The notes under the pieces are model-generated. The model made no database searches. It was not told where the DNA came from and saw only the letters and a list, made by a program, of their open reading frames with translations. A program made the position numbers and the translations under genes. A stretch of 64,000 bases of DNA from Algisphaera agarilytica. Its GTDB lineage: Bacteria > Planctomycetota > Phycisphaerae > Phycisphaerales > Phycisphaeraceae. Below are positions 456 through 53,794 of this stretch, piece after piece. Each line of letters opens with the position of its first letter. Position 1 is the stretch's first letter. The stretch covers positions 1,674,001 through 1,738,000 of the forward strand of contig NZ_JACHGY010000001.1 in the NCBI RefSeq assembly GCF_014207595.1. The letters run 5' to 3'.

Positions 456-1667
456 ATGAACATGACCGGACCACGCGCGTGGGTATTGGGGGCAACGTTG
501 GGGGCGGCGATGTCCGCGGCGACTCTCCCTGCCGAAGCCGAGACACGATTCAAGGTCGGCGATCCGGTGAGTTTCGCCGTCGAAACCACCGACGGGCGGG
601 CGATCACGTCCGGGATGCTCGAGGGCTATCTCGTCGTGGTGCACTTCTGGGCGGCGGTCTCCGAGCCGAGCATCCAGAACCTGCCCGACATCCAACGGCT
701 GCACGAGACCTACCACAAGAAAGGCGTGGGCATCGTCAGCGTCAGCGTGGACCCCGACCCCATGGCCGCGCAGGAGATGGTCGCCGAGCAGGGCCTGGAA
801 ACCCTCATCGTCCTCAACGCCGAGCAAACGATCCCCGTCAACGCGCGGTTCTTCCGCAAGCAGTACGGCGTGCCGCACACCTTCCTGATCTCTCCCGATG
901 GCAACCTCATCTGGGACGGGCACGGCTTTCTGCTCGAAGAACAACTCGAACAGGCGCTGATCGACTTCCCCCCGCCCACCGACGCGATCCTCGGCGAAGA
1001 CCCGGCCCTGGACTTCGACCCGTTCGCCTCCAGCGTCGACCCCGAAGAGCTGGCCAAGAGCGCCGCCCAGGCCATCTTCTCCCGGCCGATCGATTTCCGC
1101 CTGCTGTTCGACTCGGTTAAGGAACTGCCGGCCGAGTCCTTCGACGAAGCGAAAGTCAAAGCCTTCGGCCGATCCGTGAAACGGACGCTGGCCAATCTCG
1201 ACCCCGAGCAGCAGGAAAGCTACGACCTGTACCGCTCGGAATACCCGGGCGTCGCGCAAAACATCGACGCGTGGCTGGCCGCTTCCGACCGCAGCATCTC
1301 CTCCGGCGGCGGCGGCTCGGCCGACCCCGAACTGGTCGCCAGCAAGTTCCAGCAGGCCGAGGAAGCCGAGGCCGACGGCGACGAACTCGCCGCCTATGAG
1401 CTGTACCGCTGGATCGTCGACCGCGCGCCCGACAGCGACGAAGCCCTGCTCGCCCAGGACATGGTCCTCATCATGGAAGACGACGAGGCGTTCATGGCCC
1501 GCGTCCAAGGCGCGAAACTCGAAGGCAAAGCCCAGAACCTCATGACGATGGCCAAGAACTACGACAACGCCGGGTTCTACGACAAGGCTGATGAAACCTA
1601 CCAGAAGATCATCGACCTCTACCCCGACACCGACGCCGCCAAGCAGGCGGCGGAAGAGTTGAAGTAA
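456..1667 (+). CDS. exported TlpA-like thioredoxin-fold protein lacking the CxxC cysteines, with TPR-like tail
   Basis: The 403-residue product has a signal peptide (about residues 1-29, ending Ala-Glu-Ala) and then a TlpA/redoxin-type thioredoxin fold at roughly residues 32-165. The cis-proline strand is kept as YGVPHTFLI. At the active site, where family members read W-A-x-W-C-x-x-C, this protein reads FWAAVSEPS, so Ser69 and Ser72 replace both redox cysteines. No other cysteine occurs anywhere in the protein. A TPR-like helical pair occupies the C-terminus (about 360-403) after a Gly-rich linker near residue 285. It cannot do thiol-disulfide exchange by the usual mechanism; a binding or scaffold role in the periplasm is inferred. 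The fold assignment is confident and the role is unknown. Confidence 0.85.
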   Translation: MNMTGPRAWVLGATLGAAMSAATLPAEAETRFKVGDPVSFAVETTDGRAITSGMLEGYLVVVHFWAAVSEPSIQNLPDIQRLHETYHKKGVGIVSVSVDPDPMAAQEMVAEQGLETLIVLNAEQTIPVNARFFRKQYGVPHTFLISPDGNLIWDGHGFLLEEQLEQALIDFPPPTDAILGEDPALDFDPFASSVDPEELAKSAAQAIFSRPIDFRLLFDSVKELPAESFDEAKVKAFGRSVKRTLANLDPEQQESYDLYRSEYPGVAQNIDAWLAASDRSISSGGGGSADPELVASKFQQAEEAEADGDELAAYELYRWIVDRAPDSDEALLAQDMVLIMEDDEAFMARVQGAKLEGKAQNLMTMAKNYDNAGFYDKADETYQKIIDLYPDTDAAKQAAEELK

Positions 1668-1699
1668 CGCTTCGGGATTCGCTCGCGCGATAAACGCAC

Positions 1700-1788
1700 C
1701 CGTAGGTCAGGTCTTCGACCTGACGCGGAGGCCATGTGGTTTCAATTATCTCCAGACGATGATGTCAGGTCGAAGACCTGACCTACGG
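1700..1788. repeat. paired REP-like palindromes (25-bp inverted repeat)
   Basis: Bases 1700-1724 and 1764-1788 are exact reverse complements over 25 bp. Each arm is itself palindromic, with GTCAGGTC and GACCTGAC around a 3-base centre. The element sits between the convergent ends of the TlpA-like gene and gltD. Its form, two inverted copies of a short palindrome, is that of a REP doublet, which in other bacteria is mobilised by RAYT (IS200-like) transposases. No such transposase is in the window. It could also act as a bidirectional terminator, though there is no T-run. Confidence 0.8.
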
Positions 1789-1792
1789 CCGA

Positions 1793-3337
1793 TCACCCCG
1801 CGCTCGAGGTGAGCTGCGTCGTCACGCCCGGGGCGGGCAGTTCAGAGTGGCCCATCAGGTGTTCATCGATCTTGCGTGCGGCACCACGGCCCTCGGCGAT
1901 GGCCCAGACGATCAGCGAAGCACCGCGGCGCATGTCGCCCGCCACGAACACGCCGTCCACGTTGGTGGCAAACTCGCCGTACTCGGCCTTGACCGCACCG
2001 CCCCACTCATCCGTCTCGACGCCAAACTTCTCGACGAGCGTCGGCGTGTCGTGACCCGTGAAACCGATCGCCATGAACACGAGGTCGGCGGGGAACTTCT
2101 CGATGTTGCCGGTGGGCGTCGAGCTCCACTTGCCGTCCTGCTTGGTCCAGTGAAGGCGTTCGATCTCGACGTGGGTGACGTGGCCGTCGCCCTTTTCGTC
2201 GAGGAAGGCTTTGGGCAGGATGCCGTACTCGCGCGGGTCGCGGTCGAACTTGGCGGCGCCCTCGGCGTGGCCGTAGTCCACGTAGAACGTGCCCGACGGT
2301 CCCGGCCAGGGGTGGTCCTCGTCGCGCTCGTCCGGCTCGCGCTCGCGGCGGGTGATGTTGGTGATGCTCTTGCAGCCCTGGCGGATGGCGGTGCCGATGC
2401 AGTCGGTGCCGGTATCGCCGCCGCCGATGACGATCACGTCTTTGCCCTCGGCATCGATGAAGTCGCCGTCGGTAAAGTTCGAGTCGAGCAGGCTCTTGGT
2501 CGCGGGGTGGAGGTACTCCATCGCCACGTGCACGCCCGCTAAATCACGGCCCGGCAGCTTGCCCAGGTCGCGCGGCTTGAGCGCCCCGCACGCCAGCAAC
2601 ACCGCATCGAAGTCGCGCTTCAGGTCTTCCGGATCGATGATCTCCGACTCGCTGCCCGTGCCGTGCGCCGACGGGCCGCCGCCGACATTGCAGTTGGTCT
2701 TGAACACCACGCCCTCGGCTTCGAGCAGATCGACGCGGCGCTGCACGATGCCCTTGTCGAGCTTCATGTTCGGCACGCCGTACATCAGCAGCCCGCCGAT
2801 GCGGTCGTCGCGCTCAAACACGGTCACGGCATGGCCCGCCTTGTTGAGCTGATCCGCCGCCGCCAGACCCGCGGGTCCGCTGCCGACGATCGCCACGGTC
2901 TTGCCCGTGCGGTTCGCCGGCGGGTTGGGCTTGACCCAACCTTCTTCAAACGCGCGGTCGATGATCGCGCACTCGATGCTCTTGATCGTCACCGCCGGCT
3001 CGTTGATGCCCAGCACGCAAGCGCTCTCGCACGGCGCAGGGCAGATCCGCCCGGTCCACTCGGGGAAGTTGTTGGTCTTGGCCAGCCGTTCGTACGCGTC
3101 CTGCCAGCGGTCGTGGTAGACCAGGTCGTTCCACTCGGGGATGAGGTTGTCGATCGGGCAGCCGGTGTCGGCGTGACAGAACGGCACGCCGCAGTCCATG
3201 CAGCGCGCACCCTGCTCCTGCAACACGTGCACCTCGTGCTGGGCGTAGATCTCGTGGAAATCCGAGATGCGCACCAGCGGGTCGCGCGCGGGCATCGGGT
3301 TGCGTTCGTACTCTTGAAATCCGGTGGGTTTACCCAT
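1793..3337 (-). CDS. gltD: glutamate synthase small (beta) subunit
   Basis: The 514-residue product is the NADPH-oxidising flavoprotein subunit of glutamate synthase. It passes electrons through iron-sulfur clusters to GltB for the conversion of glutamine plus 2-oxoglutarate to two glutamates. The N-terminal cluster-binding cysteines are visible as CMDCGVPFC, then CP, and later [15 protein letters not shown]. The first dinucleotide-binding fold is [17 protein letters not shown], followed by [17 protein letters not shown]. The second is [15 protein letters not shown], and the C-terminal FAD motif is [19 protein letters not shown]. The length is slightly above the family norm of about 470-490. 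It lies 178 bases downstream of gltB on the same strand. Confidence 0.97.
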
Positions 3338-3350
3338 GGTTGAACAGCCT

Positions 3351-3503
3351 TTGCCGCAGATTTCACCGATTACGCTGATTCGTAATCAGGCCTTACCGCG
3401 GACTCGTTTATCTCTCGAAACATTCAGACATTTCTGTCTGATGAGGATTCTTAAAATCAAATTGCCTTAAACAAAATCGGCGACGTCTGCGTCATCTGCG
3501 GCA
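3351..3503. repeat. palindromic element in the gltB-gltD spacer
   Basis: The spacer between gltB and gltD carries terminal inverted repeats: TGCCGCAGAT at 3352-3361 is matched by its exact reverse complement at 3494-3503, with looser complementarity extending inward. Two smaller hairpins lie inside: GATTAC/GTAATC (3368-3373, 3382-3387) and CAGACA/TGTCTG (3425-3430, 3435-3440). The form is that of a small non-autonomous palindromic element. Being inside an operon, it would be transcribed and could affect mRNA processing or the relative output of gltD. Confidence 0.65.
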
Positions 3504-3515
3504 GCATCTCCGTAC

Positions 3516-8248
<4,733 letters not shown>

Positions 8249-15878: not shown

Positions 15879-16385
15879 TCAGGCGGCGTGGAAGGTGAGT
15901 TTTCCGTGTTCGGGGCCGCAGGCTTTGCAGATGTAGGTGCGGCCCTTGGCGGGTTTGCGGTGGCGGTGGTGGGTGGTTTGGCAGCCGGGGCAGGTGGCTT
16001 GGTACTTGCCTTCGGGGGCGGCGGCGGTGGCGTTGAGGCGGTTGGGGTTGGCGCCGATGCGGAGGCAGGTGGCGCGCCAGGCGGGGCCGTGGGGGGTGTA
16101 GGTATTGGGGTGATGATCCGGGGCTTCGCTTTGCTTAGCCCTCGGCTTGGAGGGGGTGGGGGGTGGGGTTAGGGCGTGGGCGATCTCGTGGAGGATGACG
16201 TCGCGGACTTCGTGTTCGTCGTTACGGGCCACGAAGGGTGCGGAGAGTTCGATGCGTTTGGTGGTGTAGTTGCACAGGCCAAGGGCGCGTTTGCGTTGGT
16301 TGAAGCGGAAGGTCCAGCCCTCGGCGACGAGGCCGTGGGTGTGCATGAGCGACTGGGCGAGTTGGCCGGCGGAGGGCAGGTCCAT
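15879..16385 (-). CDS. SprT-like zinc metalloprotein with inserted palindromic element
   Basis: The 168-residue product matches the SprT-like family: a HEIAHAL zinc site, a downstream HGPAW that supplies the third ligand region, and a C-terminal zinc ribbon (CPGC, then CKAC). Eukaryotic relatives (SPRTN) cleave DNA-protein crosslinks; bacterial SprT-like proteins are poorly understood. Between the HExxH helix and HGPAW lies a Pro-rich insert containing KPRAKQSEAPD, encoded by the 36-bp element at 16115-16150. The insert lengthens a loop near the active site. The flanking residues of both zinc motifs are intact, so the fold is probably preserved. Confidence 0.88.
   Translation of the reverse strand: MDLPSAGQLAQSLMHTHGLVAEGWTFRFNQRKRALGLCNYTTKRIELSAPFVARNDEHEVRDVILHEIAHALTPPPTPSKPRAKQSEAPDHHPNTYTPHGPAWRATCLRIGANPNRLNATAAAPEGKYQATCPGCQTTHHRHRKPAKGRTYICKACGPEHGKLTFHAA
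16115..16150 (-). repeat. in-frame palindromic coding element, copy A
   Basis: This 36-bp stretch, read on the minus strand, encodes KPRAKQSEAPD inside the SprT-like gene. It is nearly identical to 47746-47781 and 53481-53516, and it is read in the same frame and orientation in all three genes. The core folds as an imperfect hairpin (CCG..GGGCT against AGCCC.CGG). Confidence 0.85.
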
Positions 16386-46687: not shown

Positions 46688-48451
46688 CTATTCGACGGCG
46701 CGGTGCACTTTCAGTGGTTTGAAATCGCCTGCCACCGCCAACGTTTCGCCCTTGGAATCGAACTCACCGTCTGAGTTGGCAAAGTGCATGGTGTAACGGC
46801 CGTGGGGCAGCTCCGCCAGTCCGGGCGTATCCAACGTAGTGACGACTTTGCCGGTGTTTTCTTTGCGGATCTGAACGTGAGCGTGTGCGGGTTCGGTGGT
46901 AAACATCACCGAACGGAAATCGGGTTGTAAAGCAAGCGGCTCAGCAACATTCATCACTGGTTGTCCCCACTCGATCTCAACATAGCGGGGCTCAGGCTGG
47001 TAGTGGTTGGGCAGCACGACTTCGATCTTGTGCGTGCCTCTGGGTAACTCGACGTAGCACGGCGTGACGCCGCAGCCGGGCTTGAGCACATCGTTGATTC
47101 GCAGGAGTCCCCCAGCCGGGTTGGAATCGACGCGCAGTTTGTAGGGCCGTTGGTAGAGCCAGCCGATGCCTGCCCCGACGCCGCCGAGCATCAACAGACC
47201 TACTACTCCCGCCACGGCGACGGCCTTGCGGTGGCGGTGGAGCTGTTTACGGATGACGTAACCCGTTGTCGGCACCTTGGCGATCAAAGGCAGATCGTTC
47301 AGGTAGTTGTCCAGGTCCGCGGCCAGGGCCCCGGCGTTGTCGTAGCGGCGGTCGGGGTCTTTATCGAGGGCTTTGAGTAGGAGCGTTTCGAGTTCGCGGT
47401 CGATGATTTTTGAGGCGTCTTCGCTTACGGCGCGGGGGCGGACGACTTCGTCTTCGGTGATGTGTCGCAACAGGTCGGTGAACGAGACGCTGGTGTCGTG
47501 GGGGTATTTGCCGGTGAGCAGGCGGTAGAGGATGACGCCCAGGGCGTAGACATCGGTGCGGGTGTCGATGGCGTCGGTCTTGCCGGCGGCCTGCTCGGGG
47601 GACATGTAGGCGGGGGTGCCGGCGACTTGGCCGACGTGGCTGAGGGTGACCTGGCCGTCTTCGGGGGTGGTGGTTTTGGCCAGGCCGAAGTCGACGATCT
47701 TGGGCGTGGGGTGGGTGGATTGGCTGGGGCCTTGTGAGGGTGTGGTATCCGGGGCTTCGCTGCGCTCAGCCCTCGGCTTGGTGGCGCTGAGGTTGGTGTC
47801 GCCGGGGACGACGAGGATGTTCGAGGGTTTGAGGTCACGGTGGATGACGCCGCGCTGGTGGGCGTGTTGGACGCCGAGGCAGACGTCGCGCATCAAGCGG
47901 AGGATGGCTTTGGGTTTGAGGCCTTGGCTGCGGACATGGGTTTCGAGGTCGAGGCCGGGCACGAGTTCCATGGCGTAGTAGACGACGCCGGGGGTGGCGG
48001 ACGAGGTGGCCGAGCTGGAGTCGTAGACCCGCGCGATGAAGGGGTGTTCGAGGCGGGCGGCGAGTTCGACTTCGCGCTGGAAGCGTTGCCGGGCGGTGTC
48101 GCTGCCGAAGGCGGCGGCGGAGAGGAGTTTGAGCGCGACTTCACGGCGGGTGGCGAGTTGCACGGCCTTCCAGACCACGCCCATGCCGCCCTCGCCGAGC
48201 TTGTGCAGCAGGTGATAGCCCGGGACGGTCGGGGCGTCGGCGGGTGGCGCGGGCAACGGCGGGAGCGAGCCATGGGAGCGTGACCGGCTGGACGGATCGC
48301 CCGAGGTATCGACGGTCTCGTCGGCGGCCGACATCTCGGGTCGCGGCGGCGTGGGCCGGGGCGTGTCGTCCCGGGTGACCTCCAGGTCGTCGTCGGACAT
48401 TTCTGGTGTGGCGGGCGGCGTTGGGGGTTGGGTGGGGTCGTGTTCGCTCAA
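46688..48451 (-). CDS. membrane Ser/Thr protein kinase with PEGA domain and inserted palindromic element
   Basis: The start is TTG at 48451, which overlaps the previous TGA (TTGA) and follows a strong GGGGAGG. The product is 587 residues. The kinase domain runs at about 75-385: GEGGMGVVWKA, VALKLL, HRDLKPSNILV, DFGLAKTT, GTPAYMSPEQA and DVYALGVILYRLLTG. Between the catalytic loop and DFG lies an insert of about 30 residues containing KPRAERSEAPD, encoded by the element at 47746-47781. A transmembrane helix (about 420-445) leads to a periplasmic PEGA domain (RVDSNPAGGLLRINDV, LPRGTHKIEVVLP). It is coupled to a hypothetical gene and a sigma factor. Confidence 0.92.
   Translation of the reverse strand: MSEHDPTQPPTPPATPEMSDDDLEVTRDDTPRPTPPRPEMSAADETVDTSGDPSSRSRSHGSLPPLPAPPADAPTVPGYHLLHKLGEGGMGVVWKAVQLATRREVALKLLSAAAFGSDTARQRFQREVELAARLEHPFIARVYDSSSATSSATPGVVYYAMELVPGLDLETHVRSQGLKPKAILRLMRDVCLGVQHAHQRGVIHRDLKPSNILVVPGDTNLSATKPRAERSEAPDTTPSQGPSQSTHPTPKIVDFGLAKTTTPEDGQVTLSHVGQVAGTPAYMSPEQAAGKTDAIDTRTDVYALGVILYRLLTGKYPHDTSVSFTDLLRHITEDEVVRPRAVSEDASKIIDRELETLLLKALDKDPDRRYDNAGALAADLDNYLNDLPLIAKVPTTGYVIRKQLHRHRKAVAVAGVVGLLMLGGVGAGIGWLYQRPYKLRVDSNPAGGLLRINDVLKPGCGVTPCYVELPRGTHKIEVVLPNHYQPEPRYVEIEWGQPVMNVAEPLALQPDFRSVMFTTEPAHAHVQIRKENTGKVVTTLDTPGLAELPHGRYTMHFANSDGEFDSKGETLAVAGDFKPLKVHRAVE
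47746..47781 (-). repeat. in-frame palindromic coding element, copy B
   Basis: Read on the minus strand this copy encodes KPRAERSEAPD within the kinase, in the loop between the HRD catalytic loop and the DFG motif. It is the same element as at 16115-16150 and 53481-53516. It differs by a few bases, including a GCGCTC in place of TTTGCT/GCTCAG in the loop. Confidence 0.85.
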
Positions 48452-48936
48452 GTCGCCTCCCCCTGGGCCGAGTCGTAGGCCTGGCTGAACAACGGCTTGA
48501 GCGCGGGGTCCAGCCAAGGCAGCTGCAACGCCCAGTCGAGCCCGACGCGGAATGCCTCGTCGTCGAGGCGGGTGATCGATTCATCGGGGTGGTGCAGACG
48601 CGCCGCGGCGAGGGCGGCGTAGTACATCACCGTGGCCACATCACGCGGGAGCTCGTCGTCCTGATTGCTGCCGGCCTTGGCTTGGTCTTTGACCCGACGC
48701 AGCCGATCGAGCGGTGGGCTGGTTTGAGTGAACAACTCCAGGTGTGGGCGGGTGGCCAAGCCGTCCTCCACCTTGTCCGGCAACGGTCCAAGCGGCTGGT
48801 GCAACTGATGGCGGAGGATCGCGGCGAGGTCGTTGGTGTTCCACGGCAACGGAGACTCGGCTTGGCCCAGATTGAACAACTCGACCAACGCGGTGGGGTC
48901 GGAAAGATGCGAGGGCTTGTCGGCACTGCTGTTCAT
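48448..48936 (-). CDS. hypothetical protein between a sigma factor and a Ser/Thr kinase
   Basis: The 162-residue product (ATG at 48936) has no signal peptide, membrane helix or family I recognise. It is mostly helical in appearance: DPTALVELFNLGQAE, NDLAAILRHQLHQPLG, then DVATVMYYAALAAARLHHPD and a conserved-looking WALQLPWLDPALKPLF. It lies 63 bases below the sigma factor gene and overlaps the kinase start (TTGA). By position it may be an adaptor or regulator within a sigma-kinase module. I have no direct evidence for that. Confidence 0.75.
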   Translation of the reverse strand: MNSSADKPSHLSDPTALVELFNLGQAESPLPWNTNDLAAILRHQLHQPLGPLPDKVEDGLATRPHLELFTQTSPPLDRLRRVKDQAKAGSNQDDELPRDVATVMYYAALAAARLHHPDESITRLDDEAFRVGLDWALQLPWLDPALKPLFSQAYDSAQGEAT

Positions 48937-53002: not shown

Positions 53003-53794
53003 ATGCCCGACACTGAAAGTTTCATCGCGCTGCTCGAACACGGTGCCGTCGCCGACCTTGCCCAGATCATCACGGACCACCCGCGGCGGGTGAACACCTT
53101 TCTCACCCAACCCGCGCCGCACGGCAGTGAGCAGTGGATGCCGATGCATTTCGCCGCGCGGGCCGGACACCTCGCCGCCGTGGAACTGATGCTGGAACAC
53201 CGCGTCCACCCCGACTGCCGGACACGCTTTAACACCCCGATGCATGCCCGACAGACCCCGCTGCACCTGGCCGCGGCCGGCGGGCACTTTCAAGTCATCG
53301 AACGTCTCCTCGAAGCACGCGCAGAGATCGAGGTGCGTGACGCCCAGCTCCGTTCGCCCATCTGGCTCGCCGCCCGGCATGGTCACCCCCAAGTCATCGC
53401 CGCCTTGGCCGCCCGTCGAGCCGACCTCGAAACCCGCGACACCCAGCAGCGCACCCCGCTCCATGCCGCCCTGCTCCCCCCCAAGCCGAGGGCTGAGCAA
53501 AGCGAAGCCCCGGATCGGCTCCTTCCTCCCCCCCCGATCACCTTCAACCCCGCCGCCGCCCTCGCCCTCCTCGACTCCGGCGCCGACCCCAACGCCACCT
53601 GCCCCAAAGAGCCCGAGGGCTTCACCCCCCTGCACCGCTGCGTCGCCCTCGGCGACCCTGCCTTCGACGTCGCCAAACGCCTGATCCAAGACGGCGCCAA
53701 CCGCACCGCCGTCGACCCCCGCACGTCTCGAACCCCTCACGCCTTGGCCCTACACCTCCAACGCAGCGCCGCCTGGATCGACCTTCTAGCCTGA
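53003..53794 (+). CDS. ankyrin repeat protein with inserted palindromic element
   Basis: The 263-residue protein is built of ankyrin repeats: MPMHFAARAGHLAAVELMLE, then TPLHLAAAGGHFQVIERLLE, SPIWLAARHGHPQVIAAL, a degenerate one beginning TPLHAALL, and TPLHRCVALGDPAFDVAKRL. Ankyrin repeats bind other proteins; the partner is unknown. Between repeats four and five lies a Pro-rich insert with KPRAEQSEAPD, encoded by the element at 53481-53516. There is no signal peptide. It is divergent from the glycogen synthase gene and convergent with the DUF3524 gene. Confidence 0.9.
   Translation: MPDTESFIALLEHGAVADLAQIITDHPRRVNTFLTQPAPHGSEQWMPMHFAARAGHLAAVELMLEHRVHPDCRTRFNTPMHARQTPLHLAAAGGHFQVIERLLEARAEIEVRDAQLRSPIWLAARHGHPQVIAALAARRADLETRDTQQRTPLHAALLPPKPRAEQSEAPDRLLPPPPITFNPAAALALLDSGADPNATCPKEPEGFTPLHRCVALGDPAFDVAKRLIQDGANRTAVDPRTSRTPHALALHLQRSAAWIDLLA
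53481..53516 (+). repeat. in-frame palindromic coding element, copy C
   Basis: Read on the plus strand this copy encodes KPRAEQSEAPD in the ankyrin protein. The 36 bases match 16115-16150 at nearly every position once reverse-complemented. As in the other two genes, the sense strand and reading frame are the same. Confidence 0.88.

Follow-up and report, generated by a model that had tools for sequence, protein, structure and literature searches.

Very short hairpins, probably mobile, mostly share one reading frame within unrelated genes of the planctomycete Algisphaera agarilytica

Why should three unrelated genes in one stretch of the Algisphaera agarilytica chromosome encode the same short peptide? 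The window, meaning the whole 64,000-nucleotide stretch that was analysed, carries a 36-bp sequence in the genes for an ankyrin-repeat protein (263 aa; 53003..53794, + strand; Pfam Ank, E 5.6e-26), a Ser/Thr protein kinase with a PEGA domain (609 aa; 46688..48517, - strand; Pkinase, E 1.6e-44) and an SprT-like metalloprotein (168 aa; 15879..16385, - strand; Pfam SprT-like, E 1.7e-13). A first-pass annotation had proposed the recurrence, the three hosts, and the common orientation and frame, and all are borne out: a 35-mer pattern with three free positions and up to three mismatches has exactly three matches in the window against 0.00 expected (100 shuffles), Pfam matches the host families, and every copy lies in sense orientation and reads KPRA(E/K)(Q/R)SEAPD. 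The part coding for KPRA..APD is 33 nt long (AAG...GAT) and is found at 53483..53515 (+, KPRAEQSEAPD), 47747..47779 (-, KPRAERSEAPD) and 16116..16148 (-, KPRAKQSEAPD). These 36-nt copies, which differ pairwise by 1-3 bases, are also matched by R1, a covariance model of the 36-nt form, at E 6e-12, 7.4e-12 and 1.6e-11, respectively. No further strong covariance-model match was detected in the window, the next best having E 0.74 (R1) and 1.6 (R2, see below), and no Rfam family reached its gathering score there. In the kinase the element supplies residues 247-257, between the HRDLKPSN and DFG motifs, and residues 238-271 have just four counterpart residues in PknB; in the SprT-like protein it falls between HEIAHAL and HGPAW.

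The three copies prove to be part of a larger family. Matches to R1 revealed a 42-nt form whose internal loop is wider (KPRAAERSDKAPD), and R2, a covariance model built on that form, lists 43 copies on the 4.1-Mb chromosome (E <= 0.1; 150 of 6115 candidates scored), where a pattern search allowing up to three mismatches finds six. The 42-nt form is commoner (28/43) than the 36-nt form (7 copies), and the rest are 48 nt (4), 51 nt (3) and 47 nt (1) long. Across seven genomes 170 copies were listed, three of which were dropped; the 167 analysed range from 35 to 51 nt. Nine listed copies from one relative, G024, are of a 43-nt form, seven of them noncoding, one ambiguous and one called genic antisense. 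At L100 (G000:C1:1414800-1418600; G000 is the genome of the window) a single ORF (512-3649, +) encodes a 1045-aa protein that has six in-frame 42-nt copies and no Pfam match.

The strand of the element folds into a bulged stem, a G.A internal loop and an upper stem of two pairs that is closed by a tip of three bases. Its nearly invariant parts are AAGCC at one end and a TGAGC-NNN-GCGAA core in the middle, and the other end is mostly GGAT. This hairpin is under constraint, because the stems vary by compensatory changes around the fixed core. In an alignment of 121 copies, pairing is kept in 97.7% of pair cells, and 103 cells show a change on both sides. The covariation score reaches 0.290, compared with 0.076 for shuffled alignments and at most 0.058 for slid structures; the alignment was fitted to the tested structure and is biased in its favour. 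Two other covariation measures exceed shuffles modestly, with 13/500 and 6/500 shuffles scoring as high. The compensatory changes are visible even in ungapped 36-nt copies, for example GGGCT/AGCCC becoming GCCCT/AGGGC. Together, the covariation and fixed core could indicate that the hairpin acts in mRNA, in stability, processing or pausing, and that genic copies are kept because they are helpful. The predicted folds lean the same way: as RNA in coding orientation the window copies have z-scores of -2.7 to -3.9 (-0.75 for the opposite strand of one copy), whereas the DNA fold is unremarkable (z -1.76; 14/200 shuffles fold equally well). Against a role in mRNA, noncoding copies are paired as well as genic ones (99.1%, n = 22, and 97.0%, n = 30, respectively, for the 36-nt form).

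Frame and orientation were tabulated with a home-made codon-usage model trained per genome, in which copies within one gene are non-independent. Confidently genic calls were made for 60 of the 167 copies from seven genomes. Of these, 46 use the KPRA..APD frame, 7 use one of the other sense frames and 7 lie antisense, which places 53/60 in sense orientation. The remainder divides into 36 noncoding and 71 ambiguous copies, or into 51 and 56 if flanks that have no open frame are counted as noncoding. The KPRA..APD frame accounts for 24/28 genic copies in G000, 15/18 in G015 and 7/14 in G008, G033, G024 and G029 combined. The first-pass annotation had placed the element inside genes and regarded copies in many frames, or mostly between genes, as the outcome that would speak against it. 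Its expectation holds in G000, where 28 of 43 copies are confidently genic (7 noncoding, 8 ambiguous) and 24 of those 28 share one frame. The element is not exclusively genic, however, and in the four relatives G008, G024, G029 and G033, with just 14/93 copies confidently genic, it is mostly between genes or in unclear positions.

Target composition mostly explains the orientation. C makes up 61% of the 11 bases upstream of in-frame G000 copies and 41% of the sequence 60-400 bases away from them, and the corresponding upstream value for noncoding G000 copies is 46%. A target model was learnt from the flanks of either the 51 noncoding or the 120 non-KPRA-frame copies and applied to masked G000 host genes (unmasked values are similar). 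It predicts 85-90% sense insertion, and the sense bias follows because the preferred target is C-rich and coding strands are C-rich. Codon position 3 is 60% C, which in itself favours the KPRA..APD frame, but the model gives that frame only 0.33-0.40. The shared frame, unlike the strand bias, needs selection, and this is clear in G000 and G015 only. The excess over the target model has P 6e-7 to 1e-8 for the G000 copies (24/28), P 6e-5 to 3e-6 when host genes are counted by hand instead (18/22) and P 2e-4 to 1e-5 in G015; in G008, G024, G029 and G033 (7/14) it is not significant (P 0.14-0.29) and the target model alone could suffice. G015 and these four genomes were all tested against the model of G000 genes.

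The predicted prevalence of sense insertion from composition alone (0.85-0.91) also takes much from the argument that 53/60 genic copies are sense as an mRNA signal would be. Some loops do carry the element in two genera, which an mRNA role might account for, but to such a role the reading frame would be irrelevant, and altogether that explanation appears distinctly improbable. Frame is reflected in length as well: all 46 KPRA-frame copies are divisible by three, compared with 98/121 others (Fisher P 6e-4). Peptide hydropathy in the used frame (-2.16 and -1.99) is the lowest among the open frames, and one sense frame of the 36-nt form contains a stop. Copies in G015 (C50) and G008 (C64) lie in a coding frame which the copy itself closes, and three copies in G029 split coding flanks that are in differing frames on one strand. 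In G000, the other two sense frames are used by copies in MnmA (L151, 1053-2258, +) and in a sulfatase-modifying-factor-like gene (L149, 1356-2615, -); other sense frames are therefore sometimes tolerated.

These observations are very probably explained by a family of very short, non-autonomous mobile hairpins that favour C-rich targets and whose in-frame copies are tolerated as a bland peptide. A copy would consist of AAGCC-stem-TGAGC-NNN-GCGAA-stem'-GGAT (36 nt) or, in the versions of 42-51 nt, have a broader internal loop or an extended tip, and would be moved in trans by an enzyme acting on the hairpin; by analogy, the best candidate would be a single-strand enzyme that recognises hairpins. 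Copies would insert where one strand is rich in C, with AAGCC on that strand, and C-rich coding strands would place most gene insertions in sense. Where the frame gives the hydrophilic KPRA..APD, the insertion would be accepted as added length in a loop or linker, presumably close to neutral, and persist; insertions in other frames would mostly be lost through selection. A more far-reaching reading is that something other than a RAYT moves the family and that nucleic-acid structure and coding frame have been shaped together, the multiple-of-three, bland-peptide forms of G000 and G015 having spread through genes as an element adapted to translation. The absence of the G024 43-nt form, which is not divisible by three, from sense frames would fit such adaptation, but that genome's 36- and 42-nt forms are likewise mostly noncoding or ambiguous, and the idea is unlikely.

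The host genes themselves bear on whether the peptide was inserted or inherited. In-frame copies in G000 occupy 18 genes, 16 with a Pfam family and two without. The hosts include TsaD, a 2-oxoacid:ferredoxin oxidoreductase type protein, DnaX, MurA (Pfam EPSP_synthase, assigned to MurA by structure match), HisB, HisC, a class I tRNA synthetase, TopA, an acyltransferase E2, SMC, the kinase, the ankyrin protein, PdxH, SprT, PriA and a sodium symporter; hosts in other genomes include aconitase, MutL, a PurL-like protein and a Mur ligase, among others. The MutL homologue (G015 L118, 319-2346, +) has three in-frame copies, one of 36 nt and two of 42 nt. Orthologues lacking the insert, the check suggested by the first-pass annotation, are indeed found at the four sites tested. 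None of 15 SprT orthologues has residues in the element columns, and 28/29 HisB orthologues have at most two residues at the site, the remaining one having an unrelated insert. At the two HisC sites, 28 orthologues agree with the element at no more than 4/16 and 2/11 residues, and several have inserts of their own; one of these copies (165466) is ambiguous by the codon rule and in frame by alignment. The insertion sites in SprT, HisB and HisC are therefore loops of variable length anyway. When aligned with solved structures, TsaD, HisB, the kinase, MurA and PdxH have their gaps at the element or inside it. TopA was not counted as an empty site, its alignment just abutting the element. The extra segment of SprT, like that of the kinase, exceeds the element in length and contains many P, T and S residues. 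No empty site was found close enough to define the element ends or a target-site duplication. Together with the dispersal of near-identical copies among unrelated genes and the patchy distribution described below, the four empty sites support the mobility that the first-pass annotation had only proposed.

An ancestral or functional protein motif, arising by descent or convergence, would also put one peptide in many proteins, and E2 acyltransferases do carry it in three genomes and some loops have it in different genera. At the SprT, HisB and two HisC sites, however, orthologues without the element refute an ancestral motif. Moreover, stem changes keep pairing while altering residues (KPSPE..EGPD vs KPRAE..SEAPD), the E2 linker copies of G000 and G015 are of different forms, and 51/167 copies are noncoding, all of which leaves a motif extremely improbable. 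The first-pass annotation had noted that a peptide present in all distant orthologues would be an ancestral motif; that is not the pattern in G000, although a few loops are common to more than one genus.

Those shared loops came to light in alignments of seven homologous host-protein pairs, each pair spanning two genomes, which compared copy positions and were possibly pulled together by the peptide itself. ABC-transporter copies of G015 and G024 are at coinciding sites. For the six-copy protein, one intact G015 copy matches a G000 site and a decayed G015 copy matches another. Four E2-type proteins (G000 L147; G008 L177; G015 L163 and L166) have the element in linkers by the E3-binding domain, and some of these linkers coincide. 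The G000 and G015 E2 proteins are 63% identical, and the second linker has a copy in both, of 42 and 36 nt, respectively. A genome-typical form at the same loop suggests repeated insertion and decayed copies suggest inheritance. The shared loops may accordingly be old inherited copies or repeated hits, and are not clean evidence for recent movement.

The closest known parallel, and the one invoked by the first-pass annotation, is with rickettsial palindromic elements. These elements (RPE) and their Wolbachia counterparts (WPE) are palindromic repeats that occur in frame in many unrelated conserved genes and also between genes (PMC2229807, PMC10969869, PMC4224334), and the insert-bearing protein of rickettsial gmk is reported to be translated and active (PMC2229807). 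The planctomycete family resembles them in having in-frame palindromes in unrelated genes (46/60) and orthologues without the insert, and its translation is predicted from open frames. It differs from them in size and host: the element is 35-51 nt long and its host a planctomycete, whereas the published length of RPE is 105-146 bp (PMC2229807) or roughly 150 bp (PMC10969869). A C-rich target and a fixed G.A core are likewise not described for RPE or WPE in the available text of these sources (PMC2229807, PMC10969869, PMC4224334). Rickettsia and Wolbachia are the best-known carriers of in-frame palindromic repeats, and if the proposed explanation is true, protein-coding mobile hairpins arise independently elsewhere, here in planctomycete TsaD, MurA, DnaX, TopA, PriA and SMC. 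Target bias, acting on strand, and selection, acting on frame, would be separable, offering a quantitative handle on how selfish DNA turns into protein sequence. Such repeats are also liable to be mistaken for conserved protein motifs.

On the genomes searched, the family is patchy and found in Planctomycetota only. By pattern search the element occurs in 7/41 genomes including G000, with 62 matches against one for the reversed control, and R1 finds the element in 10/41 at E 0.01. R1 matches at E 1e-4, with 17 candidates scored per genome, were present in at least 13/397 genomes of the class and at least 5/392 of the phylum; two genomes of the same genus (78% and 91% complete) yielded none in the R1 search. 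A scan of 84,980 species genomes for the exact pattern returned 25 stretches, all in Planctomycetota records titled Phycisphaerae, Phycisphaerales, Phycisphaeraceae or Planctomycetales bacterium ZRK34. Plasmids gave no match to one 36-nt copy used as query (E 0.1) and viral contigs no exact-pattern match. No published description of this hairpin family was found in the literature searched, where sequences are rarely given in full text.

What might move such a hairpin? One candidate is a REP-associated tyrosine (Y1/HuH) transposase, which would make this an ordinary REP family and its in-gene copies stray REPs. GTAG/CGTC REPs are hairpins of 20-40 bp that occur as singles or dimers, some inside ORFs that include DNA repair and tRNA synthetase genes, and intragenic cases are reported from Opitutus terrae and Rickettsia conorii (PMC3733652). 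The planctomycete element is similarly a short imperfect hairpin that is also intragenic, the 167 listed copies include seven inverted pairs that resemble REP dimers, their members 11-92 bp apart, and Y1_Tnp genes are found in 7/7 genomes with pattern copies. It differs from GTAG/CGTC REPs in having no such tag, AAG preceding the stem and mostly GGAT lying at the other end, no RAYT adjacency, and one dominant frame in two genomes. Y1_Tnp genes are present in 33/41 genomes overall, including 26/34 without pattern copies. The search covered 30 of the 33 Y1_Tnp places in eight element-bearing genomes (two genomes with weak signals were left out), and a copy at E <= 0.01 lies near just one of them, within the aconitase gene of G008 and 223 bp from the Y1_Tnp ORF; the usual REP arrangement is therefore not seen, and a RAYT-driven REP family is somewhat unlikely. 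Class 3 TnpA-Y1 proteins are associated with atypical palindromes, which can reach high copy number, for example in Solibacter, and this Y1 class is mainly found in Planctomycetes, Acidobacteria and Proteobacteria (PMC6006769). Their structures have a CnGA foot and flank the transposase gene (PMC6006769), whereas the planctomycete element has AAG ahead of the stem and is not at Y1 genes. By eye, the three Y1_Tnp genes of G000 are flanked by other palindromes, a further point against transposition of the element by these enzymes as an ordinary REP, and other REP families are therefore probably present in this genome. Each of the three loci (L112, L113 and L114) has another flanking palindrome, such as TAGGGTGGGCATTGCCCACC downstream at L112, and the palindrome adjoining the gene at L113 gives a weak 26-nt match (E 0.037).
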